NCBI GenBank assembly: GCA_016286055.1
Contig: JAEERW010000017.1
Span: 1-50,460 of the forward strand
Source: Bacteroidales bacterium
GTDB taxonomy: Bacteria > Bacteroidota > Bacteroidia > Bacteroidales > UBA3824
Reading direction: 5' to 3'
Length of the DNA: 50,460 nt
Shown here: positions 23,990 through 50,460 of the stretch, in pieces
Layout: every line of letters begins with the position of its first letter
Numbering within the stretch: position 1 is the first letter of the stretch
Program-made: the position numbers and the translations under genes
The notes under the pieces: generated by a model
Told to the model about the DNA's origin: nothing
Database searches by the model: none
What the model saw: the letters and a program-made list of their open reading frames with translations, nothing else

Positions 23990-26900
23990 ATGAAAACTAT
24001 TTTAACAATATGGCTTGTTTTGACAACCTTTGCCAATTGTTTTGCGGCTGATCCTGTTAATCTTTACAGTCACCGTTCGGGACAGTGGACAGATTTCAAC
24101 TCGTGGACCACTGACCCGTCAGGAATCAATTTTGTCAACCCAGGTGAAGACATTCCTGGACCTGGTACCAATGTTTACATCATCCCTGGTGCATCTATCA
24201 CTGTTCCAGACACATACGATACCGGTGATTATCTCATTAATTGTGCAAACCTCAAACTTGACGGAGAGCTGGTGCTCAACGGAAAAATGGGACACAATGT
24301 TGCCGGTGTTATTGAGGGCGACGGACGTATTGTGCTCCATATAGAGAACTATCCTACTTATGGAACCAACAAGTTTGTTCTCGACGGCGGCACTACCGTA
24401 TTTCAGGGTGCTACCGTGTCGCTTACATCTGGTCACTCGTATTCAAACCTCGAAATCAACAACTCTGTGGTTACATTTGCCGGCAACATCAATATCGACG
24501 GCAATCTGTCGGTGGTTAGCGGCGGCTCTCTTATCTTTAAATCCGATGCCGCAAGCTCAGTTTATATCAAAGATGATTTGCAAGTTAACAATAGTTGTTC
24601 TATTTCTGTGGATCCTACATCCAAGCCATTCGACCTATATATCGGCGGCGACTTTCGCAACGACGGTACTATCAAGTTTACCAATCGAGATGCATATAAA
24701 AACGAAACTACCGACGAAGATTATGTGAGAGTGCATTTTAATAGTAAAACACACAATCAGACAGTAAGTTGCAACAACGTTATCGACTTTTATTCCATCT
24801 ATATGGAAAAAGGTACAAGCGACAACTATACTTTGCGTTTTACTGCCTACAACAAGCAGAATTTTCATATTTACGGTCCTGCCGTAGATAACACAACCCA
24901 AAACATTATACTCGACGGTGGAACATTGGAAATCGGTTCCAACATTGTGATTCCGTTTCTCCACGAGGATAGCTTCTACATCCCTGCAAGTTCCACAATA
25001 TTGGTTAATGCAGGTATACTCAATTCCGATCCTGATGTTAAGTGTTCTATATTTGTAGAAGGCAAACTTCAAGTGGCATACACAGGCGTGATAAACGCTA
25101 TGAACAATGCCGACGGTATCACCCTTAAGAAGTCGGGTATATTGGAGGTGGACGGCGGCAAGCTTACGGCAGCCTGCATCAAAAACGGCATCGAGGGTGA
25201 TGATTACGGTAGCTATTACCAGATTGGCGGCAACGTGGTGGTTGACAATGGTTCTGATGGAACAATGTTTTTCTGTCTCGATAATCCCAACAGCGGATTC
25301 TTGATGAAAAGCGGCGTGCTTACTATCAACCATGGCGGTCTCAAGATACTTTCATCGAGTGCCAACTGCAGCGTGGAGGGTGGCGAAGTGATTCTGAAGT
25401 CGACTAAGGGCAACTATGCTAAGCTTTGGAGTACTGCTGCGTTTCCGTCGCTTACCATTGAGAGCACCAATGCAATGACTGTGGAGCCCGAAGCAGGATA
25501 CCCGCTTAAAGTTACTGGCAACCTTACAGTTGGGAAAAATTGTACAATGTCATACAACTTGGCTGATGTGTATGTGGCAGGCAACCTCGATTGCAAGGGT
25601 ACTTTTGTTTGTTCCGAAAATACTATATTTTTCAATGGCGACGGCAATACCGAATTATCGCTGCCAAATAATAATTTCAACTTTGGCAACTTAACTATCT
25701 GCAAATCAACTCCAACTGCAACTGTCACCACTGATAAGTCTTTTTCGGTATCCAAAAATCTTACTATTACAGGCGGTACGTTTGTAAACGGCGAGCATAC
25801 CATTAATGTTAATCTTGATATCAGTGTAGAAAATGGCGGAATCAGTAGCACTACTGGATATATCAAGTTAGCAAACAACGACCATTATCATACTCTTACA
25901 AGTCCGTTGCACAATCCCTGCTGCTTTGGTAATTTGCATTATGCTGGAACAGAAAATCTTATAATCGAAGGACCCGTTATCACTCAGAACTTTGTGTTTG
26001 ACGAAACAAGATCTAAAATTGTAGAACTTAATGGTCACTATGTAGAAGTTCAGGGCGAACTTTCAGGTGCAGGTCCCAACAAATATTTTCTCAATAAGGG
26101 TGATGTTAGCGGTGGCTTGTGCTTGCATTTTACACTTAAAAAAGGAGAGAATAAAACCATCAATTTCCCTATTGGTGACAATGTTAATGGTAATAAATAC
26201 ACACCTGCCGAGATTGTGGTAACAGGTAGTATGTTGCCACAAAATTATTCAGGCTCTGTACGTATAAATGTAGTTAGTAAGTCACATCCTAATCTTTTGA
26301 CTAATAATAATATACAGCGTTATTGGGGAGTTACTCAAAATGGTTTTGATGGCGTGCCCAATGGCGCGGTTCAGTATAATTTTACTAATTCTGAAAATAT
26401 TTCATCTACCTATATTGCTGCAGGTCTTGTACATTTTAAAGGATGGAAACATTCTGATATAGCCGTTGATGGAGGTAAAATATTCTCGTTCAAAAATACA
26501 AATTTCGGTTTTATTTCAGGATATTTCACTTGTGCCCAGAATACGGATTATGATATCAAAGTGTATAGAACATGGTCGCAGACTAAGCCAACAAAAACTG
26601 CAGATAATCCTATGTATCGTATGGACAAGTCTGACCACGATAAGAATGATACTTGGCGGGAGTTGAATGAAAATGGAGAAGAAACCGATATTCCGGGTAT
26701 TCCCGGACCTCACGATATCGCATATATATATTTTAACCGTGTAGATGTGAGAGAAAGAAAACAATGGGAAGTGGGTCAATTGGTTTTTGTAGATACTGAC
26801 CCGTTATATGCTCCTGACGATTTGGAACACCAGCCTCGTCTTCAGGTTCATCCAAATGCAAATGTAACTATTCATATGTTGTCGGGTGAGGGTGTTATTG

Positions 26901-29900
26901 CTCAATATATTGGTAATTCCAATAATATTGTACACATTGATGATATTACTGCTTTTGCAAAGGAATCTCATTCATGGATGATGTATATTCTAACTGCGGA
27001 CGTTACTGATGTAGAGGGATATCCTGAACTTCCTAATTTGGCTCTCGAAGATCCTCATAATTTTTCGTTTGGAACCACTTCAAAAGTTATTAACTTCGAC
27101 TTGAATATGAGAGGAAATGTAAAATACATTTTCCCAAACGAAAATGGTGGGGACTTATTTGTTGGACGTGACTTGTATATTGGAGATTGGAAAGGTGCTC
27201 AAATTCTATTTAATGGTAATGGCAAATCTCATACATTAACTGTTAAAGGTGATGTGATTCTTTCGCATAATGGTAATCCGAAATCATATACAGACGGCGA
27301 CAGGAATATCACCGTTGGTGAAAACCCAACTGATGCTGATATATTGGAACATCGATTGATAGTTGGTGGTAATATTAAGCTTGGTTCTAAAAAGTTGCAG
27401 TTGAATAAACAGAAAGACGGTAAAATTACAGGTATAGTCTTGGAACTTAATGGAAATAAGGATGCTGAACTTGTTCATAAAGATCAGAGTAACAATAGTA
27501 GTGGTACTCTTGAATTTTGGAAAATTGTTATGAACAAAGAAAATGGTAAATCTTTTATCATAAATCGTGATTTTAGGTTAAAAGCGGCTGAGCCTGATAG
27601 TTTTGCTGGCGTTCTCAAACCTATAACTATGTTGAGCGGTCGTTTGGTTCTTAACAACAATACATCTTCCAGAAATTATCTGTTAAGTCCCAGTGGTGAT
27701 GATTTTGAAATAGCAGCCGATGCTGTTTTGGAAACTACCGGCGCAGCCAAATATACTTTAAATACAGGTATGATACTTTCCGGCGGTCTCAAGTTAGACG
27801 GTGGTTCGGTATGGAATGTTGGACAATCAATAGTATATACCGAATCTGCCACTTGTGAACTAAATATCGGCAATGCTACTATTAACGTGGGTGCGCAGTT
27901 GCGTCCCCCGATTGCTGCCGGCGGTTCTATCAATCTTATTCTTAGTCATGACAAATCTGTGCTCAATGTCGGCACCAACTCCACTATCGGATATAACGGA
28001 CGCGGAATATTCGAACTCGTTAATATGAGCTCCCTTACAATGGCAAATGGTGCTCAACTCGTTATTAAGAACTATATTGATAATACTGGACAACAAACCA
28101 TTCTTCCCGATATTAATATCAATCCTAATGTTTGCAATCTCGACCCTGGTTCCAATATCATTGTTGCTGCTGGACAGCCTGAGTTCACTACCATACTTTC
28201 CAAGGTAGATATTCCATGCCTTACTGTTAAAAGTTCTTCTCACCTTAAAATGATGGGCGCTCTCACAGTAACTGAGAATCTTTCTGTGGAATCTTCAAAT
28301 GACGAGTTATCCGCTGGAGGTTTCGAACTTTATCTCAAAGGTAATGCTAACTTCGCCGGAACTTTTACACCTGCTGAAAACACTACATATATCTGCGGTA
28401 CCAACGACCAGGAAATCAAGGGCAATATTACATTCTACAATCTTGTAAAAAATACCACTAACACAGTTTCTTTTGACAAAACAATCACCATCGAAAATCA
28501 GGCAGATTTTCTCAAAGGTACATTTATTGGCAAATGTATCATCGCCAAGGGCAATGTCGTAAACAATGCTGAGTATGTTTGCAATAGTTATTCTAACGCT
28601 TTAACCGATGGATTTATCTTCAGAGGCTCTAAGTTGCAGACGTTGAAATCTGATGGCAACGGCAGTTTCACCAAGATTGCTATAGATAATGCTAATGGCG
28701 TAAAACTGCCCACAGGTAATAGCTTTACTGTGATTAAGAGATTTCAGTTAAACCAAGGTAACTTTGATCTTGGCACTTGCACCTTCACAATGGATAAGGA
28801 GGCAATATTTATACTTGCTTCAGGAGTTTCGTATTCTGCCACCAATATGATTCAGGTTACCGACGCATACGCTACAGGCGGCGTGCGCAAGTTATTTCCC
28901 GGACCTAAGACTGATTATCTCATTCCGATCGGTACCACTGGTAAGTACACTCCTGTGACTATCAATGCCAACTCTATAAACGACGGCGCTGCTCTTACAA
29001 TACGTCCTGTTAACGAAATGACCAACTGTAAACCAGGCAACTCTGTTTTGGGTTATTTTTGGACTATGAAGGCTGAGAATGTTAACGATTTTTCTGGCAA
29101 CTTCAAATTCAAGTTCAGCAGTTCGGAAACTGTTCCTTCGTCAATGGTTGGAGTGTTCCATTGCGATGCCACCGACGAATTCACCGAGTTTAGTGGAGCT
29201 TGGAACAATAGTAAAAAAGAACTCACATTCAGTTTCTCTGGCGTTTCATCCGACGCACTTTCAGGCAAATACCTTGGATCTGCCTCTGACGGAAACGCTC
29301 TTGCCTCCATAGTGCCCGAGTATTACATCGAGGGTTATGACGGAGATGAATTTGCCGATTGGTCTGATGTATCAAGATGGTATACTATAGGTGAAGGTGG
29401 TTCCCATCTTCCTGTTCAAGTAGTTCCCTCTAATTCGGTAGTTCATGTATATAAAAATGTGTCGATGGAGCATGCTCCTAAAACTGGTGTTACCGAGTGC
29501 AAGGTTTACATAGAGGAGGGCGCAGTGCTCGACCAAATGCTTTCGATGCACAACGATTTCGGCACTGTGTTGGGCAAAGGCACGCTTAAATCTCAGACAG
29601 GCGACCTTCCCGCCGGTGTTTACGACGAATTTAATTCTGCTAACGGCGGTACTTTGCATTACTACGGAGGCGGCTCTGAGGGCACTGGATATTCTATCTT
29701 GAAACAGATGCCAGTGGTAAACAACCTTATTATTCAGAGCGAAGGCGCTGGCGAGATTAAGAAATTCCCCAGTATGGATGTTCAGATACTTGGCGACTTT
29801 ACCATCAACGGCAATGTTAACAATGAGGCTAATGCGGTGATTTCGCTTAAGGGTGATTTGAATTATAAGTACGGTCACTTTACCACCGGCAATTTAGGAC

Positions 29901-32900
29901 GAAGCAAGTTTGTGTTCAATGGTGATGAAACACAGATAGTTTCAGGCCGCAACTTCACTGAGGACAACTGTATTTTCAATATGGTGATTAACAATCCCAA
30001 TGGTGTGGAACTCCGTAATACTGTGTTTGTTCACAACACTATTGAATTTATACAGGGCATTATCACCGCGAGCGAGTTTTATGATGGATTGCTCACCTTA
30101 GACAATTCAGAATCTAACAGTATTTTCGGTTTCGGACCCTATGCCTATGTCGACGGTCCGTTCCGTAAACGAATCAACAATGGCGAGTTCTACACTTTCC
30201 CGGTTGGCAACACCAATGGCGGTGATAAGCGTTACGGTCCTCTTACTATTCAGAATACCAATACCAACGGTTCTGTTTATTGGACAGTGCAGTATGTTTA
30301 CGACATGCCCCCGGAGTGGGACAACTACGATGACGATCTTCTGTCGATTTCTACCAATGAGTATTGGAAAATATATTCTGAGGATGATTCTTACCAGGCT
30401 CAGATTCTTACCCGTTGGGACGGCACAACTCCTATAATGCACCAATCACTCAACCCCGAAAATATCCGTCAGGTATATTTCAACCGTTCTGAGGGCAAAT
30501 GGGAACTCTCTGGCTCTCGTGTAACTATTGAGGGCAACAATGGTTATGTAGAATCTTTCACCGCAAGGAATATTACAGCCAGCAAAGGTGAACCTGATTT
30601 GTTCTCGTTCGGTTTCCAGACCAAATGGAACTATTGTTGGTGCGGCACCTTCAGCGATGACTGGTTTGATAAGAGAAACTGGATTATGGATTTCACACCC
30701 ACTCATCGTACCCAAGTAAAAATAGGTGGAGATTGTCCCAACTGGCCGGTAATCGGCGAAAATCCAGATGGTGCTGACAAACCTGCTACTTGCGGCAGCC
30801 TCATGTTGTGCGACGAAGCTACTCTCGACATTGAGTCGCGTGGCAAACTTACTGTTACTACAGATGTTACTGTTCAGCCTACTGCCAAACTTACTCTTCG
30901 TGCTGATAAGAAAACCGAAGACAACAATCACTCGATACCGCCTACAGGTTCGTTGATTTACAAAGGCAAGTTTAATGGCAAACTCACATTCCAACGTTAT
31001 GTTCGCTCTTATGAGTTTGAGCGTATGTGCGTTCCAGTAACAGGATTTGATGCCAATGTTTCTAATTTCCGTCGAAGCGCTTGGATTTATTCTTACGACG
31101 AGGGTTTCAATCTCGACAAAAATAATGGCAATTATTATCGATATGAAGATGGTATCGGCGACGATAAAAATCCTGAAATTTTATCTTCTGCGTGGATAGA
31201 TGGTGCTACTATTACTACTAATAGTTTTACCACTCCTTATCGTTATATCAGTTATCCATATTTGGCAGCGCATGCAATACCTTTTACTGGTACTCCAATG
31301 CCAGATGCCACTCAGAATGTAAAGGTGAATTTAACTTTTACCGAAAACGACCAAGTAAATCAATCTGGTTTCCAGCCTGATTTGCTCGATGGTTGGAACT
31401 TGGTTGCCAACCCGTTTGTGTCGGCTGTTGACGCAAACGAACTTGAGTTCTACAACGTAGACAAAGTGATTTATCTCCACGATAATATCGACGACAGCCC
31501 GTTGGTATATGCCCTTGAAGCAGGCGTGCCTGCCGGAGTGGTTACCAACTATGCCGAAGGTCGTTACATTCCTGCTGGACAGAGTTTCTTTGTTCACGCT
31601 AAGAATACTTCTGAAGAAAAATCGGTAGTGTTTACTCCAAAAAGCCGTTCGCACGGCTCAGAGGCTATGAAGATTAAATCGGGCAGCAATAATGGCTGTT
31701 CTGATTTTGACAAGATTATTTTCTTAACCAATGGTCATGGTCAGGATTTCCAAAGCGTTGTTTATTTTGCCAACGACGCTACACAAGGCTTTGATTCACG
31801 TTACGACGCATATCTCCAAACATCAAATGTTTCTGATGTGCTTCAGTTCTACTCTTTTGGTAGCGATTACAAAGTTCCCCTTATTGTAAATGGATTGCCC
31901 AATTCTGTAAAAGATGGAGGAGAGATTCGTCTCGGCTACACCACAGTTACTGGCGGCACTTATACGCTTTCGGTTCCCACTAACACTGTAACAGGTACTA
32001 CCGTTTACCTTAAGGATACCGAAAATGGAACTTTGACACCTATTTCCAACGGCTTCTCTTGCAAAATTAATGTGGCTGCTGGTACAAACAATTCGCGTTT
32101 CAAATTGGTTTTCAAACACAATACCGCTCCTGTGGCAAAAGTTTCTATCGCCGATGCTAATGGTGTTGCAAATGAAAACTTTGTTTATGCAATTGGTTCG
32201 GACCTCTTTGCCGACAACGATCAGGGCGACTATGTGGCTCATGTTGATGTTACTTCCGAAGATGGTTCTGCTCTGCCTTCGTGGCTATATTTCAACTATG
32301 AATCTGGCGAGTTTAGTGGTAAGCCCACCTCAGCAGGTGTTTACCGTATAGCCATTACAGCTACCGATAGTTACGGAGCCAAATCTCTACCTTTGACTTT
32401 TGCTATTGCCATTGAATCCAGCAACTTACCCCTTGTTAACGATGACAATAATCTCGTTACAGTAGAAGACCCCGTAATACCTATCTTGGTAAATCCGCAT
32501 GATCCTATGCCTATTGAGCCAATACTTCCCATTATTGTGGATCCTATTTTGCCCGAGGTTGATAATAATAATGAAGTTACCGTTACCGAACCCACTATCA
32601 ACGACAATAGTGAAGTAGAAGAAAATAATGGTCCTGAGGAATTGCCTTTGATTGATCCTATGATTCCTCTTGTAGACGAACCCTTGGTGGATCCTTTCAA
32701 TCAAGACCATTTTGCCGATGCGGATGTTAAAGTTTATCCTGTACCATCCAACGGACGTGTAACTGTAGAATATGGAAGTTTGATTCAAGATTTCGGCTCA
32801 GTACAGATGACAATAGTTTCTATCTCTGGCCGCATAATTCTTACCAAGACACTCTATGGCGAAAAGATTGATTTAGATCTCACCGGTCGTGCCGGTATAT

Positions 32901-32959
32901 ATTTAATACGTTTGGCAACGCCCGCAAAGACAATTACCAAACGTGTAGTGATTCAGTAG
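23990..32959 (+). CDS. Giant T9SS-exported cell-surface protein (2,989 residues)
   Basis: Very large secreted protein. A signal peptide ends near FAADP (residue 20). Most of the length is repetitive beta sequence (INGNV..., GDLTINGN-type units, LDGGTLE...), consistent with a right-handed beta-helix. A recurring head module with a paired-Trp motif appears near residues 31 (GQWTDFNSW), 861 (RTWSQTKP), 1787 (FADWSDVSRW) and 2220 (TFSDDWFDKRNW), each leading into a new stack. A GWNLVANPF segment follows in the last third, then an Ig/cadherin-like domain (about 2710-2800), a Pro/Asp/Glu-rich linker (about 2805-2905), and a type A T9SS sorting domain beginning VKVYPVPSNGRVTVEYG and ending KRVVIQ. 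An adhesin or surface-layer role is inferred. No enzyme motif is seen. The frame is unbroken. The stretch at about 26,120-27,600 is clearly richer in A/T-ending codons than the rest. Confidence 0.88.
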   Translation: MKTILTIWLVLTTFANCFAADPVNLYSHRSGQWTDFNSWTTDPSGINFVNPGEDIPGPGTNVYIIPGASITVPDTYDTGDYLINCANLKLDGELVLNGKMGHNVAGVIEGDGRIVLHIENYPTYGTNKFVLDGGTTVFQGATVSLTSGHSYSNLEINNSVVTFAGNINIDGNLSVVSGGSLIFKSDAASSVYIKDDLQVNNSCSISVDPTSKPFDLYIGGDFRNDGTIKFTNRDAYKNETTDEDYVRVHFNSKTHNQTVSCNNVIDFYSIYMEKGTSDNYTLRFTAYNKQNFHIYGPAVDNTTQNIILDGGTLEIGSNIVIPFLHEDSFYIPASSTILVNAGILNSDPDVKCSIFVEGKLQVAYTGVINAMNNADGITLKKSGILEVDGGKLTAACIKNGIEGDDYGSYYQIGGNVVVDNGSDGTMFFCLDNPNSGFLMKSGVLTINHGGLKILSSSANCSVEGGEVILKSTKGNYAKLWSTAAFPSLTIESTNAMTVEPEAGYPLKVTGNLTVGKNCTMSYNLADVYVAGNLDCKGTFVCSENTIFFNGDGNTELSLPNNNFNFGNLTICKSTPTATVTTDKSFSVSKNLTITGGTFVNGEHTINVNLDISVENGGISSTTGYIKLANNDHYHTLTSPLHNPCCFGNLHYAGTENLIIEGPVITQNFVFDETRSKIVELNGHYVEVQGELSGAGPNKYFLNKGDVSGGLCLHFTLKKGENKTINFPIGDNVNGNKYTPAEIVVTGSMLPQNYSGSVRINVVSKSHPNLLTNNNIQRYWGVTQNGFDGVPNGAVQYNFTNSENISSTYIAAGLVHFKGWKHSDIAVDGGKIFSFKNTNFGFISGYFTCAQNTDYDIKVYRTWSQTKPTKTADNPMYRMDKSDHDKNDTWRELNENGEETDIPGIPGPHDIAYIYFNRVDVRERKQWEVGQLVFVDTDPLYAPDDLEHQPRLQVHPNANVTIHMLSGEGVIAQYIGNSNNIVHIDDITAFAKESHSWMMYILTADVTDVEGYPELPNLALEDPHNFSFGTTSKVINFDLNMRGNVKYIFPNENGGDLFVGRDLYIGDWKGAQILFNGNGKSHTLTVKGDVILSHNGNPKSYTDGDRNITVGENPTDADILEHRLIVGGNIKLGSKKLQLNKQKDGKITGIVLELNGNKDAELVHKDQSNNSSGTLEFWKIVMNKENGKSFIINRDFRLKAAEPDSFAGVLKPITMLSGRLVLNNNTSSRNYLLSPSGDDFEIAADAVLETTGAAKYTLNTGMILSGGLKLDGGSVWNVGQSIVYTESATCELNIGNATINVGAQLRPPIAAGGSINLILSHDKSVLNVGTNSTIGYNGRGIFELVNMSSLTMANGAQLVIKNYIDNTGQQTILPDININPNVCNLDPGSNIIVAAGQPEFTTILSKVDIPCLTVKSSSHLKMMGALTVTENLSVESSNDELSAGGFELYLKGNANFAGTFTPAENTTYICGTNDQEIKGNITFYNLVKNTTNTVSFDKTITIENQADFLKGTFIGKCIIAKGNVVNNAEYVCNSYSNALTDGFIFRGSKLQTLKSDGNGSFTKIAIDNANGVKLPTGNSFTVIKRFQLNQGNFDLGTCTFTMDKEAIFILASGVSYSATNMIQVTDAYATGGVRKLFPGPKTDYLIPIGTTGKYTPVTINANSINDGAALTIRPVNEMTNCKPGNSVLGYFWTMKAENVNDFSGNFKFKFSSSETVPSSMVGVFHCDATDEFTEFSGAWNNSKKELTFSFSGVSSDALSGKYLGSASDGNALASIVPEYYIEGYDGDEFADWSDVSRWYTIGEGGSHLPVQVVPSNSVVHVYKNVSMEHAPKTGVTECKVYIEEGAVLDQMLSMHNDFGTVLGKGTLKSQTGDLPAGVYDEFNSANGGTLHYYGGGSEGTGYSILKQMPVVNNLIIQSEGAGEIKKFPSMDVQILGDFTINGNVNNEANAVISLKGDLNYKYGHFTTGNLGRSKFVFNGDETQIVSGRNFTEDNCIFNMVINNPNGVELRNTVFVHNTIEFIQGIITASEFYDGLLTLDNSESNSIFGFGPYAYVDGPFRKRINNGEFYTFPVGNTNGGDKRYGPLTIQNTNTNGSVYWTVQYVYDMPPEWDNYDDDLLSISTNEYWKIYSEDDSYQAQILTRWDGTTPIMHQSLNPENIRQVYFNRSEGKWELSGSRVTIEGNNGYVESFTARNITASKGEPDLFSFGFQTKWNYCWCGTFSDDWFDKRNWIMDFTPTHRTQVKIGGDCPNWPVIGENPDGADKPATCGSLMLCDEATLDIESRGKLTVTTDVTVQPTAKLTLRADKKTEDNNHSIPPTGSLIYKGKFNGKLTFQRYVRSYEFERMCVPVTGFDANVSNFRRSAWIYSYDEGFNLDKNNGNYYRYEDGIGDDKNPEILSSAWIDGATITTNSFTTPYRYISYPYLAAHAIPFTGTPMPDATQNVKVNLTFTENDQVNQSGFQPDLLDGWNLVANPFVSAVDANELEFYNVDKVIYLHDNIDDSPLVYALEAGVPAGVVTNYAEGRYIPAGQSFFVHAKNTSEEKSVVFTPKSRSHGSEAMKIKSGSNNGCSDFDKIIFLTNGHGQDFQSVVYFANDATQGFDSRYDAYLQTSNVSDVLQFYSFGSDYKVPLIVNGLPNSVKDGGEIRLGYTTVTGGTYTLSVPTNTVTGTTVYLKDTENGTLTPISNGFSCKINVAAGTNNSRFKLVFKHNTAPVAKVSIADANGVANENFVYAIGSDLFADNDQGDYVAHVDVTSEDGSALPSWLYFNYESGEFSGKPTSAGVYRIAITATDSYGAKSLPLTFAIAIESSNLPLVNDDNNLVTVEDPVIPILVNPHDPMPIEPILPIIVDPILPEVDNNNEVTVTEPTINDNSEVEENNGPEELPLIDPMIPLVDEPLVDPFNQDHFADADVKVYPVPSNGRVTVEYGSLIQDFGSVQMTIVSISGRIILTKTLYGEKIDLDLTGRAGIYLIRLATPAKTITKRVVIQ

Positions 32960-42387: not shown

Positions 42388-45300
42388 TTATAGGGATATT
42401 TTCCATTTAGAGCCGCCAATATGTATCACATAGATACCGCTTTTTAGCGATGTGCAGAAATGTGATGTATTGCAGTCGATGGTTTTGATCAACCTTCCTG
42501 AAAGGTCGTAGATGCGTATTTTGCGGCCTTCGGCATTTTCTACATAAAGAGTTTTTCCGTATCCCCATACTTTTACGCCATTTGCGTCAACTGTAGAAAC
42601 TGGTGTTGGATTTAGAATCAACTGTATTGTGTATGAAAAGTCAAGGTCATAAATTTTGCCGTTGACAGTGGCTTTGCCTGCTGTTTCCATGTCGGGTTCT
42701 ATGAGCGTTACATTTGATGCCGACAAATTGAATGTATCTTTCTTGCCCACGCCGTAGGTCATAATGATGTAGCCGTTGTTTTGCAATGTGTTGCCGGTGA
42801 AATATGCTTTCTTAAAGCCGTCAATTTTAATTTCTACCACAAAAGATTTTTTGCTGAGCTCTTCAAAAGTGGAAAGGCAGGGGAGGGTGAGCTCTGCCAT
42901 TGTAGACACTGTTTGAGTGTTGCCCGGAGTCCAATATTTATCATCGAAATTGCTTGCAAAATCTGTTGATGCGCCTTCAAGATAGTTTGTAGGCGACACA
43001 AGATTGTCGGGGAAGTTGCTACCAGCCACAGCTCCCAACTTGGTGAATTCGGTAAAGAATCTGCAGTTTTTCAACGAACCGTTGTTAACGCCGCATATCG
43101 TACCCACTTTTGAATCTCCGCTTGAATATCCGTATGTTAATACCGATGATATGGTGCCTGAATTTTTACCAGCTATTGTGCCAATGTTTTCGTCACCCGA
43201 TGCTTCGCCTTCAAATAGGCAGTTTGTTATTTTGCTGTTTTTAAGATTGCTGCCAGCTAAGCCGCCGATATTGTTTTTGCCTTTTGCTCCGCCTTGAACG
43301 TAGCAGTTTGATATTGTTCCCTGGTTGTTGCCGCAAACGATACCGCAGTTGGATTGTCCTATGATATACGAATCGGTGATGGCGAGATTTTTGACTGTGC
43401 CTTTAAGTGTTTGAAATAATCCAGCGTTGGCAAGTGTGGTGTCGTTGATGTATATTCCGCTGATGGTGTGTCCGTTGCCCTCGAATGTGCCTTCGTATAC
43501 TGTATTGCGGTTGAGCGTGCGGTATTTGCCGGTATAGCAGTTGGGATACCATTGTTCAAGTTCAGCGGTTTTATTGTCGTGAACCCTTGCCACTACGTTG
43601 GTATTGCACACAATGTCGGCAGTTAGTTTTCCTTTGGCTTTTTGGTTTGCTGTTTGTGAAACGTGCTCGATAAACCAATATAGCTGATCTTTGGTGGCAA
43701 TTTCGTAGTAGCCAGATTTGTCGATAGCAATGGATGTTGTAGCCTTTATTGATGAAGTGTGCTCAAGGTCAATGATTTTTAATGAGTATGTGTTGCCATC
43801 TTGTACAAGTTGGTCAGATACGTCTTGTCCGTTGACGTAGACCTTAAGTTCAAAATCTTTTTTCACTGTAAATATTATGGTGCTGTCTAAAAGCACGTCG
43901 TGACGTTGGTTGGTGGTGCATCCAAAGTCTGTGGTAATGTCTACCAAATACAATGGTTGGATAATGTCTTTGTATAGCCCCCAGTTTTCATCATTTTTGT
44001 ATTTGTCGATGGCGCTGATAGGCACGTAGATTGTAGTAATTTTGTCGCATTTGTCAAACGACTTGACGCCAAGTTGAGTGTTTTCGCCTTTTACAATAGC
44101 TTGTTTTAAAATCCAACATCCGTAAAAGGCGCTGTCGCCTATGGTTGTGAGCGTTGATGGAAATTCTATGTACTCCAACGTACGGTTGTTGGCAAATGCT
44201 GCAGTGCCTATGCTTTTGATGTTGTCGGGCAACGTAATGTCGGTCATATACGAGCAATCTGTAAATGCGTAAGGCGCGATGCTTTCTATTTGAGGCGGAA
44301 TCTCTATAGTGAGCAGATGGTGGCAACCTTGAAAAATTCCCTTGTTTATGGCTTCGAGGTTTTGTGTAAGATTTATCGTTGTAAGTGCATCGCAATTGGC
44401 AAAGGCGTATTGTTCTATTTGGGTTACGCTTTCGGGCAATTTGAGCGTTTTAAGTTTTACGCAATTTCCAAAAGTGAATTCGTGTATGGCGGTTAACTTT
44501 TCAGGTATGTTGATGGTAGTGAGTTTTTTGCAGTTTTCAAATGCCGATTTGCCTATGTAGCCTACAGTTTCGGGAAGTTTTACCTTGGTTATCATAGTGC
44601 AGTTAGCAAAGCATTTGTCGGCGAGCGAAGTTACTGCGTATTTTTTGTCGTTGAATGTTACAGTGTCGGGGATTATTATTTCTGGTGTTGTCGACTCGTA
44701 TCCAAATATCTGCACCAAAAGGTTGTCAAAATCTGTTATGCGGTAGAATATGCCGTTGAGCAAAAAACTTTTGCCGTCGTTTTTGAGCGGTCGCATATTG
44801 TTGGCATATATCGACCAGTTTTGTGCAATTTTGTATTCTGCGAGTCTCGATTCAGGAACATATATTTTGTATGCGGAGGCTATCGACGAAAAACCGCTTT
44901 GACCTAATGTACAGTATTCGCTGTATAGCACTATCAAATTGAGACTTTCGCATTCGTAAAATGCTTTTTCTCCTATTTTTTTTACGGTTTTTGGAATATC
45001 TACCACCTTGATTCTTTTGCAACTATAGAATGCGTGAGAGCCAATCTCAGTTAGATTCGGTGGAAATGTTATGCTGTCTAACACATGGCAGTTGTTGAAT
45101 GTGTAGTCGGGTATTTTGGTGATGGATTCGGGGATGTTGATGTTTTCTAATTTTGAGCAGCCTGCAAACGCTCCTTTGTTTATGGTTTGCAAACTTTCGG
45201 GCAGTTCCATTCGTGCAATTTTAGTGCAGTTGGCAAATGAATATTCTCCTATTGAGGTCAACTGGTTGTGGAGAGTTACGTTGGCAAGCGTTGTGCAACC

Positions 45301-47550
45301 TTTCAACATGTTGTTTGATATAGCGGTTACCGAGGTGGGCAGTTCAAACGATTTTAACGATGTGCAACCTTCAAATGCTCCTTCGCCTATTGTGATAATT
45401 TTGTTGGTAAGGGTGATTGTGGTGAGTTTTGTGCAGTTTTTAAACGCATATTTGTCGATACCTGTGAGGGTGTAAGTTTTGTCTTCGTTGGTTACAGTAG
45501 TTGGTAGCACTAAATTGGCATCCATTGTGCTTTCATATCCTGAAATGTGCACCTCCCTGTTGTCGTCGCCTGTTACTGTGTATACTATTCCATTTTTGGT
45601 AAATCCTGTTATCGAGGGAATTACTATTATTCTGCTTAAATATGGTGCCCAGTTTGGATCGGCTTGATATTCGGCATATTTTGATTCGTAAACCCAGATT
45701 TTTGTAGCAGATGGCAAACCGTTGAATGCCAAGGGATGAATGGAGGATACTGTTTCTGGTATCACAATCTTGGTTAGTGATGTTGCGCCTTGAAATGCGT
45801 TTGCGTCGATATATACAACAGAATAGTCTTCGCCATCGATTGTTACTTCGTATGGTATAACCAATTCCTCACCAATGGTTTCGTAACCTACAAAATCAGC
45901 CGTATGTGCGTTAATGTCGATTATTGAGTAATATAGTCCGTCTACAAGATGTTTCTCTTCCGACATACCTTCGGCTTTGATGTGCTCTTCGTACACGTTC
46001 CAATTTTGAGCCACGCAGTATGCTTTCCATCGCGAAAGCGGCACATATATTTCAAAGTTTGTTGCCATACCGTCGAAAGCGCCTGTGCCTAATGTAGTGT
46101 TTAGTGCTTCTATGGTTATTTTGCTAAGTTTGGAGCAACCGTTGAAAGCATTGTCGCCAATGGATTCCAAACTTGCCGAAAATGTAAGCGGACCAGTGAG
46201 TTCTTTGCAGCCGTTCATCGCATCATCACCTATTTCTGTGATTGTTCCTGTAAATGTGATACTTGTTAATGCTTCGCAACCTTTGCATAGCGATGTAGGA
46301 ATTGTTGTTATATTGCTTGGCAAGGTAACGGTCTTTAATTTTTTGCAACCTTCAAACACACCAATACCCATGCTTACAATATTGTTGGTGAGGGTCACGC
46401 TCTCCAAATTTACGCATTCTGCAAAAGCGTTGTCGGCTATAGATTTAATGTATTCTTTGCAAGTGATTGATGTGATTCCGCTGTTTGCCAAAGCAAATGC
46501 GCCTATTGAGGTAATAGTGTGTTTTTTGGAGTTTATCATCACATACTCTGGTATAGTAATATTGCCAGAAGCTGCGTTGTATCCTACTAATTTGGCAGTT
46601 AGGTTGGTGGCGTCGTCTACTATGTAGATAAGATTGTTTTGTTCGTAGGTGGTTCCAGATGTTGACATTTTCTGTATGCAGTCTTTCCATCTGCTCAAGT
46701 TGCTTTGTCCTTGGTAATATCCAAGTCGGTTGTCGGGTACATAGATTATTCCAGTAAAATTTGCGGCATTAAAGGGTTCTGTTCCGAATATTGTGTTTCC
46801 GCCTTCAATATATAGAGTTTCTAAATGGGTGCATCCACCCAAAGCTTCGTCGCCTATGGTAGCTACGTTTTCACCCATTGTCAGCGTTTTCACCTTGGTA
46901 CACGCAAATAATGCGTAGTTTCCTACCGAGGTAATAGTTTTAGGTAGTGTGATGTTTTCCATTTGGCATCCTCTAAATGAGTATACGCCAATGGTTTCGG
47001 TGTATGGCGAAATTTGCAACGATGTAATACCTTTGCATCCGAATAGCACACGGTCGCTTACATGTTTTACTCCGTCGGGAAATTTAAACGATGTGATAGC
47101 TATGCAGTTTTCAAACGCACCTGCTCCAATATATGTGATGTTGTCAGGTATGTTGATGGTAGCCAGTAATTTACAGTTGTAAAAACAGTTGTCGCCAATT
47201 TCGGTTAAACTTTCGGGCAACGATACTTGGCTAAGATTTGTACAGCCGCTGAATGCGCCTTCGCCTATCGAAGTGATATTTTCGGATATGGTTAGCCAAC
47301 TTAATGCTACCGCGCCTTTAAACGCTTCCGAGCCAATAGACGTAACGGTGTATGTTTGGCTTTGGTAGGTGATTTCGCCAGGAATAGTTTTGGAACCAAC
47401 TGCATTTACATCGCCTTTGGTTAGCGAGGCCGTTTTATTGTTGGTGTTGAGCGTATAAGTAAAGCCATCTATCTTGGTGGTGATGGGAGCAGCTTCAGCT
47501 ATCGTAATTGATAATAATAAATATATTAGTGTAATAACTATCTTGTTCAT
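42388..47550 (-). CDS. BspA-like leucine-rich-repeat surface protein with T9SS signal
   Basis: Secreted protein of 1,720 residues. A signal peptide ends near IAEAAP (residue 20). Most of the first 1,290 residues are LRR_5/BspA repeats of about 23 residues (pattern GxxAFxxCxxLxxITLPxxxTxIG). They form five blocks, each closed by a module of the form IYVPxxRLxxYKxxxNWxxY followed by a short spacer. After an Ig-like part come GLUG-type glycine-rich repeats (about 1,430-1,530: NNQGTISNCYVQGGAKGKNN and similar). The end is a type A T9SS sorting domain (KIRIYDLSGRLIKTIDCN ... SGIYVIHIG). BspA proteins bind host proteins or other bacteria; the ligand here is unknown. The promoter is unclear: a near-consensus TACTATTG lies at 47579-47572. 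Confidence 0.92.
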   Translation of the reverse strand: MNKIVITLIYLLLSITIAEAAPITTKIDGFTYTLNTNNKTASLTKGDVNAVGSKTIPGEITYQSQTYTVTSIGSEAFKGAVALSWLTISENITSIGEGAFSGCTNLSQVSLPESLTEIGDNCFYNCKLLATINIPDNITYIGAGAFENCIAITSFKFPDGVKHVSDRVLFGCKGITSLQISPYTETIGVYSFRGCQMENITLPKTITSVGNYALFACTKVKTLTMGENVATIGDEALGGCTHLETLYIEGGNTIFGTEPFNAANFTGIIYVPDNRLGYYQGQSNLSRWKDCIQKMSTSGTTYEQNNLIYIVDDATNLTAKLVGYNAASGNITIPEYVMINSKKHTITSIGAFALANSGITSITCKEYIKSIADNAFAECVNLESVTLTNNIVSMGIGVFEGCKKLKTVTLPSNITTIPTSLCKGCEALTSITFTGTITEIGDDAMNGCKELTGPLTFSASLESIGDNAFNGCSKLSKITIEALNTTLGTGAFDGMATNFEIYVPLSRWKAYCVAQNWNVYEEHIKAEGMSEEKHLVDGLYYSIIDINAHTADFVGYETIGEELVIPYEVTIDGEDYSVVYIDANAFQGATSLTKIVIPETVSSIHPLAFNGLPSATKIWVYESKYAEYQADPNWAPYLSRIIVIPSITGFTKNGIVYTVTGDDNREVHISGYESTMDANLVLPTTVTNEDKTYTLTGIDKYAFKNCTKLTTITLTNKIITIGEGAFEGCTSLKSFELPTSVTAISNNMLKGCTTLANVTLHNQLTSIGEYSFANCTKIARMELPESLQTINKGAFAGCSKLENINIPESITKIPDYTFNNCHVLDSITFPPNLTEIGSHAFYSCKRIKVVDIPKTVKKIGEKAFYECESLNLIVLYSEYCTLGQSGFSSIASAYKIYVPESRLAEYKIAQNWSIYANNMRPLKNDGKSFLLNGIFYRITDFDNLLVQIFGYESTTPEIIIPDTVTFNDKKYAVTSLADKCFANCTMITKVKLPETVGYIGKSAFENCKKLTTINIPEKLTAIHEFTFGNCVKLKTLKLPESVTQIEQYAFANCDALTTINLTQNLEAINKGIFQGCHHLLTIEIPPQIESIAPYAFTDCSYMTDITLPDNIKSIGTAAFANNRTLEYIEFPSTLTTIGDSAFYGCWILKQAIVKGENTQLGVKSFDKCDKITTIYVPISAIDKYKNDENWGLYKDIIQPLYLVDITTDFGCTTNQRHDVLLDSTIIFTVKKDFELKVYVNGQDVSDQLVQDGNTYSLKIIDLEHTSSIKATTSIAIDKSGYYEIATKDQLYWFIEHVSQTANQKAKGKLTADIVCNTNVVARVHDNKTAELEQWYPNCYTGKYRTLNRNTVYEGTFEGNGHTISGIYINDTTLANAGLFQTLKGTVKNLAITDSYIIGQSNCGIVCGNNQGTISNCYVQGGAKGKNNIGGLAGSNLKNSKITNCLFEGEASGDENIGTIAGKNSGTISSVLTYGYSSGDSKVGTICGVNNGSLKNCRFFTEFTKLGAVAGSNFPDNLVSPTNYLEGASTDFASNFDDKYWTPGNTQTVSTMAELTLPCLSTFEELSKKSFVVEIKIDGFKKAYFTGNTLQNNGYIIMTYGVGKKDTFNLSASNVTLIEPDMETAGKATVNGKIYDLDFSYTIQLILNPTPVSTVDANGVKVWGYGKTLYVENAEGRKIRIYDLSGRLIKTIDCNTSHFCTSLKSGIYVIHIGGSKWKISL

Positions 47551-47609: not shown

Positions 47610-48452
47610 TTATTGGCAATTTTGAATGTGATATTCTGCTAATCGTTCAATGGGCCTCTGCAATGTATCGGTAACGGTGAGGCTGTAAAATCGTGCCACA
47701 TCGTCCAAAATCTCTTTAAAATGGGCGGCTACTGAGCCAACAAATCCGATATTGTATGATTTATAATTATCTATCCTTATTATGTTCTTAACAAAAAACA
47801 GGTCGAACTCACAGAAAACCAAGTTTCTAAACATAGCGTCGCTTATGTGCTCTTTTATAAACGGTACAAATTTTGCCAAAAATGCGGCTGGTTTGTCGCT
47901 GCGGTAAACTCCGTTAATTATGTCGTTGTAGTTTACCATACACTCGCGTTCAAACATTTCGCGGTGTTGTTCGCTGAAATCGCTTTTGTACATGGCATTG
48001 AGCAAACGCCTTCCGAGACTTGCCCCACTGCCTTCGTCACCGAGTATGTAGCCCATCGAAGGTATTTTTTTTACTATCTTTCCTTTTTTGTAAAGTCCTG
48101 CATTAGAGCCTGTTCCGAGTATACAAGCAATGCCGTCATCGTTTTTAAACAGTGCTGTGGCTGCGCCTGTAAGGTCGTCGTTAACAGTAATGATGGCATT
48201 GGGTAGCATTTTTTTGAGCACGTTTTCCACCCTTTGGCTAGGCTCTCCGGGCAGGCACCCCGCTCCGTAAAAATACACCGCCTCCACATTTGTTGCATCT
48301 ATGTTATTTAATGTTTCGTGGGTACACCTATATATATAGTCTTCGTCGGCGTGCACGGGATTGAAGCCTGTGCCGTTTAAAAACTTAACGTCTGTGCCAT
48401 CTGCTATAGCCCAGTCGCATTTAGTTGTTCCGCAGTCTGCTACTATTATCAT
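47610..48452 (-). CDS. N-acetylglucosamine-kinase-like protein (BadF/BadG ATPase family)
   Basis: ASKHA-fold sugar kinase-like protein of 280 residues. The phosphate-1 loop ADCGTTKCDWAIADG is at the N-terminus, phosphate-2 GTGSNAGLYKKG and the adenosine-side GDEGSGASLGRRLL follow. Bacteroidota members phosphorylate N-acetylglucosamine freed from cell wall or glycans. An upstream in-frame ATG at 48500 would add 16 residues but lies before the predicted transcription start (about 48477), so ATG 48452 is chosen. The nearest minus-strand gene downstream is the BspA-like gene, 59 bases away; a link in function is not shown. It is divergent from the TIR/FISUMP gene, with 23 bases between the two start codons. 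Confidence 0.88.
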   Translation of the reverse strand: MIIVADCGTTKCDWAIADGTDVKFLNGTGFNPVHADEDYIYRCTHETLNNIDATNVEAVYFYGAGCLPGEPSQRVENVLKKMLPNAIITVNDDLTGAATALFKNDDGIACILGTGSNAGLYKKGKIVKKIPSMGYILGDEGSGASLGRRLLNAMYKSDFSEQHREMFERECMVNYNDIINGVYRSDKPAAFLAKFVPFIKEHISDAMFRNLVFCEFDLFFVKNIIRIDNYKSYNIGFVGSVAAHFKEILDDVARFYSLTVTDTLQRPIERLAEYHIQNCQ

Positions 48453-48475: not shown

Positions 48476-50125
48476 ATGCAACGCAAAGATAGCAATTCAT
48501 TTACAATTTCCCAAAAAAATGCGATGTGGTTTGATAAAAATGTATTATCTTTATGCCCAGAAATTACGATACCAGATATGGCAAAAAACTACTTGAATAG
48601 CGACAACCCTGTATATTTCACCTATTCGCGAAACAGCGTGGAAAAGGCGGAATGGAAAAGTATTGCTGATGTGGTTGACGACTTGCTCAAAACGTTTTGC
48701 AAAGAGAATATAAAATACAGCGTTGACAAAGAGGACATAAAAGTTGGCGACAAAATTTCTGCCTACGAGCATGAGATTGGCGACGCTAAGTATGTCATTA
48801 TTATTCTTTCCGACAGGTATTTCTATCGTTACCATTGTATGTTTGAATTGTGTAACATACTTAAAAACACAGAAGGTAAAACCATAAAATATATTAAGTC
48901 GGGCAATTTTAATATCCAAAGCCTGGAGTATAGGAAAAAAATAAAGGACTATTGGGTACAGCAAAAGGCTCTGATCGAAAATAGAATAGCAACATATAGA
49001 AATCCAGATATTTCTTTGCTTGAGCAATCGGCTATCGACAATGGTTTTTATTTGGATTTTATTGACCAGTTGTCAAAATTGTTTCGTGATGTCAGTTATG
49101 AAAACGCCGACAACATTCGACTTGGACTCTTGGGCTCTAATCCTCGCCACACTCAATTTGTTGACGAAATCAAAAGAGACTTTGGCTGGAGACCATCAGA
49201 AACCATTCCTGCGCCAAAATCAAAGTTTAACGAAAAGTATATCTTTTATGCTATAATGGCAGTGATGTTGGGGGTAATTATTTGGCTGTCAAACAGAACA
49301 CCAAGTACAATTGGTGGGGACATCCAGCACGAGCGCGACAGCATAGCCAGCGCAGAAGCCGCCAAGGCCGCCGAAGAAAAACGTCGGCACGACAGCATAG
49401 CCTCGGCTAATGCCGCCAAAGCAGCCGAGAAGGCACGTATAGCTGAACAAAAACACATAAAAGACAGCATTGCCAAGGCAGAAGCAAAGAAAAACAGTAC
49501 GACGCAGCCTATCTCCGGCGCTGCCTCAGGCCACCCCTACGTCGATCTCGCCCTCCCCTCCGGCACCCTCTGGGCTACCACCAACATTGGCGCAGCCAAC
49601 CCTTGGGACTACGGCTACTACTTCGCCTGGGGCGAGACCACCACAAAATCCAAATACGACTGGTCAACCTACAAATACGCCAACGGCGACTACAAAAAGC
49701 TCACCAAGTACTGCAACAAATCCGACTACGGCAACAACGGCTACACCGACAGCCGCACCACCCTCGAACGCTCCGACGACGCTGCCACCGCCAACTGGGG
49801 CAGCGACTGGTGCATGCCGACACTAGCGCAGTTTCAGGAACTTAAAGACAAATGCACTTGTACTTGGACAACAAAAAACGGCAAGAAAGGCTATGAAATA
49901 AAGGGCAAAAACGGGAATTCGATTTTTCTTCCCGCCGCCAATTACCGCGACGGGACGTCTCTCAGCAGCGACGGCTCCTACGGCTACTACTGGTCGTCGT
50001 CGCTCAGCTCGGACTCCCCGTGCGTCGGTTGCTACCTCTCCTTCTCTTCCGGCTTCGTGGGTCCCGGCGATCATTGGTACGACCGCGACAACGGATTATC
50101 GGTGCGCCCCGTGCGGTGCAGATAA
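48476..50125 (+). CDS. TIR domain - membrane helix - coiled coil - FISUMP (C-type-lectin-like) protein
   Basis: Chimeric protein of 549 residues. The TIR domain spans about 44-160: it begins VYFTYSRNS and has VIIILSDRYF followed by YHCMFELCNI, where E124 matches the catalytic glutamate of NAD-cleaving TIRs. A linker (160-250) precedes one membrane helix (about 254-272), then an Ala-rich coiled coil (282-340) with DSIA at 288, 306 and 330. The C-terminal domain (about 352-549) starts GHPYVDLALPSGTLWATTNI and ends NGLSVRPVRCR: the FISUMP/formylglycine-enzyme-like, C-type-lectin-like fold. The ATG 48476 is used; ATG 48524 is also possible and would keep the TIR. The last ~55 codons look like a DGR variable repeat. 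The TIR side should face the cytosol, with the lectin-like side outside. The gene contrasts sharply in base use: A/T-rich at first, C/G-rich from about 49505. Confidence 0.85.
   Translation: MQRKDSNSFTISQKNAMWFDKNVLSLCPEITIPDMAKNYLNSDNPVYFTYSRNSVEKAEWKSIADVVDDLLKTFCKENIKYSVDKEDIKVGDKISAYEHEIGDAKYVIIILSDRYFYRYHCMFELCNILKNTEGKTIKYIKSGNFNIQSLEYRKKIKDYWVQQKALIENRIATYRNPDISLLEQSAIDNGFYLDFIDQLSKLFRDVSYENADNIRLGLLGSNPRHTQFVDEIKRDFGWRPSETIPAPKSKFNEKYIFYAIMAVMLGVIIWLSNRTPSTIGGDIQHERDSIASAEAAKAAEEKRRHDSIASANAAKAAEKARIAEQKHIKDSIAKAEAKKNSTTQPISGAASGHPYVDLALPSGTLWATTNIGAANPWDYGYYFAWGETTTKSKYDWSTYKYANGDYKKLTKYCNKSDYGNNGYTDSRTTLERSDDAATANWGSDWCMPTLAQFQELKDKCTCTWTTKNGKKGYEIKGKNGNSIFLPAANYRDGTSLSSDGSYGYYWSSSLSSDSPCVGCYLSFSSGFVGPGDHWYDRDNGLSVRPVRCR
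48484..48515 (-). promoter_or_regulatory. Promoter of the sugar kinase gene, inside the TIR gene's 5' end
   Basis: On the minus strand TTTG (48515-48512) is 20 bases before TATCTTTG (48491-48484), both perfect. Predicted start near 48477. It overlaps the first codons of the TIR gene if that gene begins at 48476. Confidence 0.75.
49955..50116 (+). other. Candidate diversity-generating-retroelement variable repeat
   Basis: The final ~55 codons of the TIR/FISUMP gene. In 49981-50080 only 8 of 100 bases are A, against about 29 T, while the same gene just upstream (49831-49930) is A-rich. Most of the variable-looking codons end in C or T with mixed first and second bases (AGC, GAC, TCC, TGC, GTC, GGT, TAC, TTC, GGC, GAT, CAT), as expected if AAC/AAT template codons had their adenines randomised. 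The fixed frame GYYWSSS and NGLSVRPVR is kept. The G/C-rich stretch 50102-50116 would be the place for the initiation-of-mutagenic-homology element. No template repeat or reverse transcriptase is in the window. Confidence 0.5.
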
Positions 50126-50250
50126 TTACCTTTTCTCCGATACGAATCAATTTTAATGCACTTTTTCACTTTTGTAACCCCTTAACCACCAACCCCTCCA
50201 AAAAACTGAAAAAAAACATTCAAAAAAACATCAAAAAAGTTGCTAAAAAA

Positions 50251-50283
50251 TTTGGAGAATGGGTTTAAATGTGCTTACCTTTG
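50251..50283 (+). promoter_or_regulatory. Upstream of two tandem promoters
   Basis: TTTG (50251-50254, within TTTGGAG) is 21 bases before TACCTTTG (50276-50283), followed by CACCCG. Both boxes are perfect. Confidence 0.75.
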
Positions 50284-50396
50284 CACCCGCAAACGAAAAA
50301 AAACGACGGACATTGAAACAAATTTTGGTTAAGAAACGTTAAATAAAATCCCGCCCAATGGGAAACGAAACCTTAACACAAACTAAACATAAAAAG

Positions 50397-50428
50397 TTTG
50401 GAGGAGAACAGAAACCTACCTAACTTTG
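50397..50428 (+). promoter_or_regulatory. Downstream of two tandem promoters
   Basis: TTTG (50397-50400, again TTTGGAG) is 20 bases before TAACTTTG (50421-50428), followed by CACCG. Both boxes are perfect. The TTTGGAG form at -33 and the tandem layout recall Bacteroides rRNA promoters. Confidence 0.75.
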
Positions 50429-50460
50429 CACCGCGAAATTTGAGAAAGAAACTTCGCCAC

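Follow-up and report, generated by a model that had tools for sequence, protein, structure and literature searches.

Proteins that join TIR to C-type-lectin (CLec) ends diversified by diversity-generating retroelements (DGRs) have already been described in cyanobacteria and Thiohalocapsa, whose conflict sensors carry a C-terminal variable region (VR) of the C-type-lectin type, have TIR among their effectors and sometimes hold TIR and VR in the same protein, as in the combined CHAT and TIR target of DGR 2 (PMC7517822, PMC10907252). As described in the available parts of these sources, the sensors are mostly cytoplasmic or linked to an NTPase or MoxR, with CLec tips. Here, we analyzed a 50,460-nucleotide window, corresponding to one whole contig (JAEERW010000017.1, hereafter C8) of the Bacteroidales genome GCA_016286055.1 (hereafter G000; 4.18 Mb, 36 contigs, 99.17% complete), in which a forward-strand gene encodes a TIR domain, one predicted membrane helix and a FISUMP domain in a single protein whose C-terminal end appears to have been diversified by a DGR. 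This TIR-FISUMP protein differs from the described sensors in its membrane helix, its FISUMP tip and its lack of an NTPase, and no DGR was found in its genome.

In the FGS/STAND/TIR counter-invader systems, FGS (FGE-sulfatase) lectin-fold domains are paired with TIR, often with a DGR (PMC7159879, PMC8195603, available parts), whereas the window protein lacks both of these, NTPase and FGS, and is not adjoined by partner genes. Domain kin of its tip occur among human-microbiome DGR targets, with DUF1566 being the commonest target domain (47 proteins) and an Mfa2-type lipoprotein that ends in Fib_succ_major being a putative target, but the examples described in the available part of that source are surface proteins or lipoproteins without TIR (PMC4159848). 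Membrane-anchored DGR targets in general have also been described (PMC8144416, available part), and animal Toll-like and IL-1 receptors share the single-pass layout predicted for the window protein, in which TIR lies in the cytosol and ligands bind to an outer part (PMC7075850, available part). Compared with these receptors, the window TIR is N-terminal, the opposite order, the ectodomain is different and the best TIR structure matches are plant proteins. Pycsar PycTIR is a bacterial membrane-linked TIR effector that senses cyclic nucleotides inside the cell and has no outer binding domain. No TIR-TM-FISUMP protein (TM, transmembrane) was found in the literature, a weak absence given that subscription papers and bioRxiv preprints were poorly covered and FISUMP was unproductive as a search term. 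An earlier note on this DNA, made from the sequence alone, knew of no characterized system with this exact layout; the pairing of TIR with DGR-diversified lectin ends is already in print. The protein is a variant of the known TIR/DGR conflict sensors, its new features being the compact layout of a membrane receptor and a tip of the FISUMP type.

The open frame could begin at two positions. We favor Met35 (48578) as the likely start over 48476, because aligned relatives begin near 48578 and a divergent BadF-like gene probably starts near 48452. The features are as follows, with residues in 515-amino-acid (aa) numbering unless stated.

48476..50125, plus strand: whole open reading frame (ORF), 549 aa, confirmed present
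48578, plus strand: likelier start, Met35, giving 515 aa, from the start of a 26-row TIR alignment
48605..48907, plus strand: TIR domain core, residues 10-110, presumably cytoplasmic; from Pfam, Foldseek and profile
48845..48847, plus strand: GAA, encoding the putative catalytic glutamate E90 (E124 when counted in the 549-aa frame)
48923..49180, plus strand: helical extension conserved in the TIR family, residues 116-201; from the alignment and AlphaFold2 model
49232..49291, plus strand: single membrane helix, residues 219-238; from hydropathy and an AlphaFold2 helix
49310..49489, plus strand: long helix rich in Ala, residues 245-304, which may be a coiled-coil stalk; from the AlphaFold2 model
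49535..50122, plus strand: FISUMP/Lcl_C (DUF1566-type) domain, residues 320-515; from relatives' family matches and a separate AlphaFold2 model
49940..50122, plus strand: VR-like C-terminus; its variable columns hold codons ending in C/T, with changes at the first and second positions, and there is DNA homology to the FISUMP template region of congener G008
50123..50138, plus strand: stop codon and following stretch, first part TAATTACCTTT, common to other FISUMP genes
50245..50460, plus strand: contig-end repeat of 216 nt, probably an rRNA operon leader; 100% identity at C30:34-249

The TIR half is recognized by family model, structure and profile. Pfam TIR (PF01582) matches residues 62-138 of the 549-aa frame with 27.6 bits against a cut-off of 21.3 (E 3e-6), and all 26 Foldseek matches in the PDB at E<=0.001 are TIR entries of plant proteins, the best being the Roq1 TIR (E 2.3e-6). 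A profile built from the 26 rows finds Roq1 at E 3.2e-7, aligning the glutamate of HCMYEF with that of WCLEEL in Roq1. E124, the glutamate of the CMFEL motif in the window protein, corresponds to E90, which is invariant in 26/26 aligned rows, and the equivalent residue is catalytic in plant TIRs. The TIR domain with its putative catalytic glutamate in place, as read in the earlier note, is therefore borne out in fold and residue.

Both a hydropathy scan and AlphaFold2 predict one membrane helix between the TIR and FISUMP parts, in agreement with that note. The full-length AlphaFold2 model (46-row alignment; mean pLDDT 85.8, pTM 0.49) shows the TIR fold, with the membrane helix spanning 219-238 and a long helix spanning 245-304; the C-terminal domain, 320-515, is modeled with confidence (block pLDDT 83-98). 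The relative placement of the domains is unreliable because pTM is only 0.49. The alanine-rich coiled coil proposed earlier is thus recovered as a long Ala-rich helix that may form a coiled coil.

The FISUMP label for the tip rests mainly, and with good support, on its relatives. The window's own domain reaches Lcl_C at E 0.0016, short of the cut-off, and matches none of the NCBIfam models, while among 25 aligned members, including the window and 24 others at 35-67% identity to it, Lcl_C is found in 17 and Fib_succ_major in 7 at E<=0.1, and TIGR02145 FISUMP in 8 at E<=1. Modeled alone by AlphaFold2, the domain reaches pLDDT 91.6 and pTM 0.89, and phage FISUMP proteins supply its two best matches among viral models (E 1.9e-3 and 0.06, TM 0.37). 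The relationship to FISUMP anticipated from the sequence is thus carried more by the aligned relatives than by the window's domain itself. The post-stop TAATTACCTTT follows 6 of 60 FISUMP-like ends, including three of six TIR fusions (window, G011, G003). Two stand-alone FISUMP genes on contig C5 of G000 have, by eye, signal-peptide-like N-termini.

A search of 147 related genomes, the source genome included, gave matches in at least 35. The complete TIR-membrane-FISUMP order in one frame was read from fetched loci in at least six further genes of 5/17 congeners, a lower bound set by the loci fetched.

G017:C235, G011:C29, G015:C23 and G003:C57: one-frame TIR-FISUMP genes, by frame reading
G014:C6: TIR-TM-FGE-FISUMP, with an extra FGE domain
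G017:C204: TIR-FISUMP with a shortened tip and a doubtful helix

This recurrence upholds the single-protein layout and bears on a trivial explanation, that the gene is an assembly chimera. Only 335 nt separate its end from the end of C8, as a misjoined contig edge might; six one-frame homologues in five other genomes rule such an artifact out as the cause of the fusion, and for the architecture it is already refuted.

The fusion belongs to a wider TIR-TM-X family whose outer part may be FGE, Sel1, beta-rich (by eye) or absent, L208, L214 and L219 ending at their own membrane helix. Hydropathy marks a helix in 20/20 distinct TIR-motif frames (that of L064 being doubtful), after removal of three duplicates and four spurious motif matches, and in 16/20 rows of a further TIR set; these frames were chosen by a motif close to the window's, and the count does not extend to the G000 TIR proteins on C14, C21, C23, C24, C33 and C36. 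When 344 genomes were drawn evenly from the order, the TIR profile matched seven at E<=1e-15, with best values of 2.4e-113 inside the genus and 2.5e-21 outside it, and no match in the drawn congeners G009 and G016, so that, within this draw, the family seems nearly confined to the genus. One 362-aa TIR-TM protein (L004, L212, L222, L223) is 92-96% identical across G000, G001, G012 and G015 (333-349 of 362 residues) and is possibly a housekeeping member, unlike those with variable tips. TIR-TM genes also lie paired close together at several loci (L063 on G003:C57, L035, L206, L207, L075), which suggests local duplication. As for carriage on phages or plasmids, tblastn with the fusion matched its FISUMP part only (seven phage records, one plasmid), and a scan of viral contigs with the stalk and FISUMP part gave no match.

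The C-terminal part of the window gene bears a codon footprint that supports DGR diversification. A set of 19 stand-alone FISUMPs served to define the variable columns, the VR being the last ~60 codons. At these columns, C/T-ending codons make up 321/410 in the VR and 180/358 upstream across the stand-alone set, 21/22 versus 7/15 in the window gene (p 0.0012) and 21/22 versus 9/16 in the G011 fusion (p 0.005). Taken as sole proof of a DGR, this raw excess was weakened by a composition control and later backed by a third-base test. As a control that takes out most amino-acid bias, the count was restricted to four-fold codons, where the stand-alone set still shows 103/130 at variable VR columns, compared with 68/128 at variable upstream (p 1e-5), 171/284 at conserved VR (p 1e-4) and 373/536 at conserved upstream columns (p 0.03). 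The third-base test takes the share of amino-acid-changed codons that keep their third base. Between the window gene and its paralogue on C5 of the same genome, this share is 22/25 in the VR and 13/45 upstream (p 3e-6), and it is likewise raised (p<0.001 each) against the G011 fusion (21/25 versus 12/32), G002 (21/30 versus 6/35), G015:C130 (20/25 versus 8/39) and G010:C135 (17/23 versus 16/53).

DGRs do occur in the genus. Their reverse transcriptases (RTs) are marked by a GxxxSQ motif, and RTs with this motif are present in 4 of the 17 congeners (G008, G009, G010, G011), the last three of which have FGE-type pairs of template repeat (TR) and VR. The G011 element (L131, G011:C151, 2114-7485) consists of a 1233-aa TIR-NTPase-like-FGE target (TIR E 7.8e-10; NB-ARC below cut-off, E 0.0023; FGE E 3.4e-40), followed downstream by an accessory ORF, the RT and the TR; over a compared core of 113 nt, the target departs from its template at 17/31 A sites and 1/82 other sites. 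This target is of the FGS/STAND/TIR kind. In G008 (L133, G008:C32, 1-2344), a FISUMP-type template stands just before a DGR RT (RVT_1 E 2.1e-14), the order being a 29-nt match to the template's end at the contig start, an ORF with no Pfam match, the TR and the RT; no TR/VR pair was found inside this fetched stretch. Compared with this template, the VRs in G003:C115, G003:C5 and G014:C227, which are tips of FISUMP-tipped proteins, are changed at 21/46, 20/46 and 21/46 A sites and at 14/152, 23/152 and 20/152 others. The window VR fits it loosely (A 26/45, others 41/152) and is therefore related but not cognate. The corresponding counts are 27/45 and 39/152 for the G011 fusion, 29/44 and 41/147 for C5, 26/43 and 34/146 for G002:C200, 29/46 and 39/155 for G014:C478, and 26/44 and 36/146 for G010:C92. 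Besides, two IMG/VR viral contigs (L308, L309) have a FISUMP-type asparagine-rich stretch heading an RT frame (RVT_1 above cut-off in one and below it in the other), which suggests that such DGRs are mobile.

The clearest sign of DGR-type diversification of a membrane TIR protein in the genus, read from sequence, comes from two TIR-TM-FGE genes of two species, L071 (G003:C129) and L074 (G014:C269). They differ at 21/123 positions in the VR and tail and at 30/1365 before (p 5e-11), with 5/624 differences in the first part, and their TIR parts are near-identical. The VR and tail differences fall on codon positions 1, 2 and 3 in numbers of 10, 10 and 1, and all 13 changed codons alter the amino acid. 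No DGR RT was matched in G003 or G014, and a framework pattern search returned just L071 and L074 themselves.

We put at roughly 0.5 the probability that the window protein is a sensor crossing the inner membrane once, its TIR inside and its FISUMP tip, bearing a DGR-type hypervariable face, in the periplasm. The TIR inside and the tip outside form the best-supported part of this picture, in which a TIR in the cytoplasm, its NADase-type active site intact, would be joined via the membrane helix and a helical stalk to the periplasmic FISUMP, whose last ~60 residues would form the hypervariable binding face. The tip may bind a ligand at the cell envelope, such as a glycan, an adhesin of a phage or a surface protein of a competitor, whereupon the oligomeric state of the stalk would change and bring TIR domains together; activation by clustering is our inference, as is the outcome, in which the assembled TIRs would cleave NAD or make a nucleotide signal. 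A reversed use, with FISUMP working in the cytoplasm and the hydrophobic helix merely tethering the protein, is improbable. Many published DGR targets with effector domains are indeed predicted to be cytoplasmic in the available parts of PMC10907252 and PMC7517822, but the protein has one helix between its halves and lacks an N-terminal signal, which would put the halves on opposite sides of the membrane; the C5 stand-alone FISUMP genes have the signal-peptide-like N-termini noted above, and the family members that end at their helix fit a TIR inside.

Several results weigh against the sensor reading. PADLOC gives a single partial match of the TIR part, PDC-S66 (E 5.9e-6), and Foldseek finds no PDB match at E<=0.001 for the FISUMP model, leaving the C-type-lectin fold that had been expected of the tip unconfirmed. 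The C/T-ending footprint is significant in only two of six TIR-FISUMP fusions tested (window, G011), the VRs of the other four scoring 12/21, 16/21, 14/19 and 12/19, none significant against its own upstream. For the window alone, the four-fold test is underpowered, with 6/6 set against 3/6 (p 0.18), 9/15 (p 0.12) and 26/30 (p 1). Third-base retention reaches p<0.001 in 5 of 14 chosen comparisons and is not significant at 0.05 in the other nine; moreover, the five are not independent, because C5 and G015:C130 are close kin (identity 0.923 in the VR and 0.838 upstream). Retention is not clear when the window is compared with the remaining four fusions, with 5/44, 11/37, 21/38 and 9/41 in the VR and, in the same order, 14/64, 18/65, 15/30 and 10/55 upstream. 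In G000, two RVT_1 matches were found, neither with the DGR motif, a DGR RT query gave 0 matches, and genome searches found no FISUMP template repeat. Finally, no defence genes adjoin the gene: the two on its left encode the BadF-like protein (below the Pfam cut-off) and a BspA-type leucine-rich-repeat protein.

An alternative is that the FISUMP end is a captured adhesin tip, varied by ordinary divergence and gene conversion among paralogues, with no role for a DGR in the window gene. The absence of a DGR from G000 and of the footprint from four of six fusions fits that account, as does the greater likeness of C5 and G015:C130 in the VR than upstream, which conversion or selection would give, and surface loops favor amino acids with C/T-ending codons. 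Even so, we regard it as unlikely: third-base retention of 22/25 versus 13/45, together with the four-fold control at family level, is unexpected from ordinary divergence, a FISUMP-type DGR template is present in the genus, and the non-coding stretch after the stop codon is shared among FISUMP genes.

If a DGR, likely a mobile one, shaped the window VR, it would be absent from the assembly as found, and the VR may have been orphaned when such an element was lost. Short of a DGR in unassembled DNA that works in trans, the present allele would then probably be fixed. In this sense, the variable outside part proposed by the earlier note is retained as a DGR codon footprint in the C-terminus, whereas variability in the present day is not borne out, with neither a DGR RT nor a template found in G000. 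Scanning 27 FISUMP VRs against the fetched loci returned no template at <=4 non-A mismatches per 70 nt, and scanning 46 VRs (FISUMP and FGE) against L186-L227 returned none either; these scans are bound to their threshold, the G008 template having been among the loci and yet missed, to be found later by its asparagine-rich translation. Two scans of viral contigs found no template or end cognate to the window VR. Two related non-DGR RTs lie in G000, at L057 (G000:C20) and L058 (G000:C23, at a contig end), each beside a related frame of ~367 aa.

A DGR just past the end of C8 was also considered and is unlikely. The terminal 216-nt repeat has related copies upstream of the 16S gene on C35 (77% over ~108 nt) and on C28, so that an rRNA operon probably follows, judging from these copies, and the repeat explains the contig break. 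No NTPase was found by Pfam in the protein or in its two left-side neighbors, the contig end cutting off the right side. The BspA-type protein (1720 aa, 42388-47550) matches LRR_5 at E 2.7e-196, and farther off in the window a 2989-aa protein (23990-32959) carries a secretion-system sorting tail as well as an Ig-like domain.

The adjoining genes, none of them a defence gene, would suit a role in membrane signaling or envelope sensing outside defence, with the TIR acting as a scaffold or making an envelope or growth signal and FISUMP binding a fixed ligand, e.g. a glycan. The varied outer parts of the TIR-TM-X family (Sel1, beta-rich, FGE or none) and the housekeeping-like 362-aa member conserved in four genomes point the same way. 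Set against this are the VRs in the tips of some members, which suggest unpredictable ligands, and the DGR of the genus that targets a TIR-NTPase-like protein. We consider this the most serious of the alternatives, while still rating it as rather unlikely.

The sensor reading can be extended, more tentatively, to a Bacteroidales family of Toll-like receptors, single-pass proteins whose cytosolic TIR would cleave NAD and whose tips (FISUMP, FGE or both) would be exchangeable, some of them hypermutated by an RT, in which surface contact might lead to suicide or a nucleotide alarm, making them a membrane counterpart of adaptive-like immune receptors; we hold this broader proposal to be possible but doubtful. 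The TIR-TM-FGE pair of G003 and G014 (L071/L074) and the G011 TIR-NTPase-like-FGE DGR offer natural variants for probing the ligands of such tips. If the sensor reading is correct, bacteria would have evolved, in one short gene, a membrane receptor that pairs an internal TIR with a hypervariable binding tip on the outside. Such a protein would be a minimal test case for coupling a random binding surface to a TIR enzyme with no partner protein.

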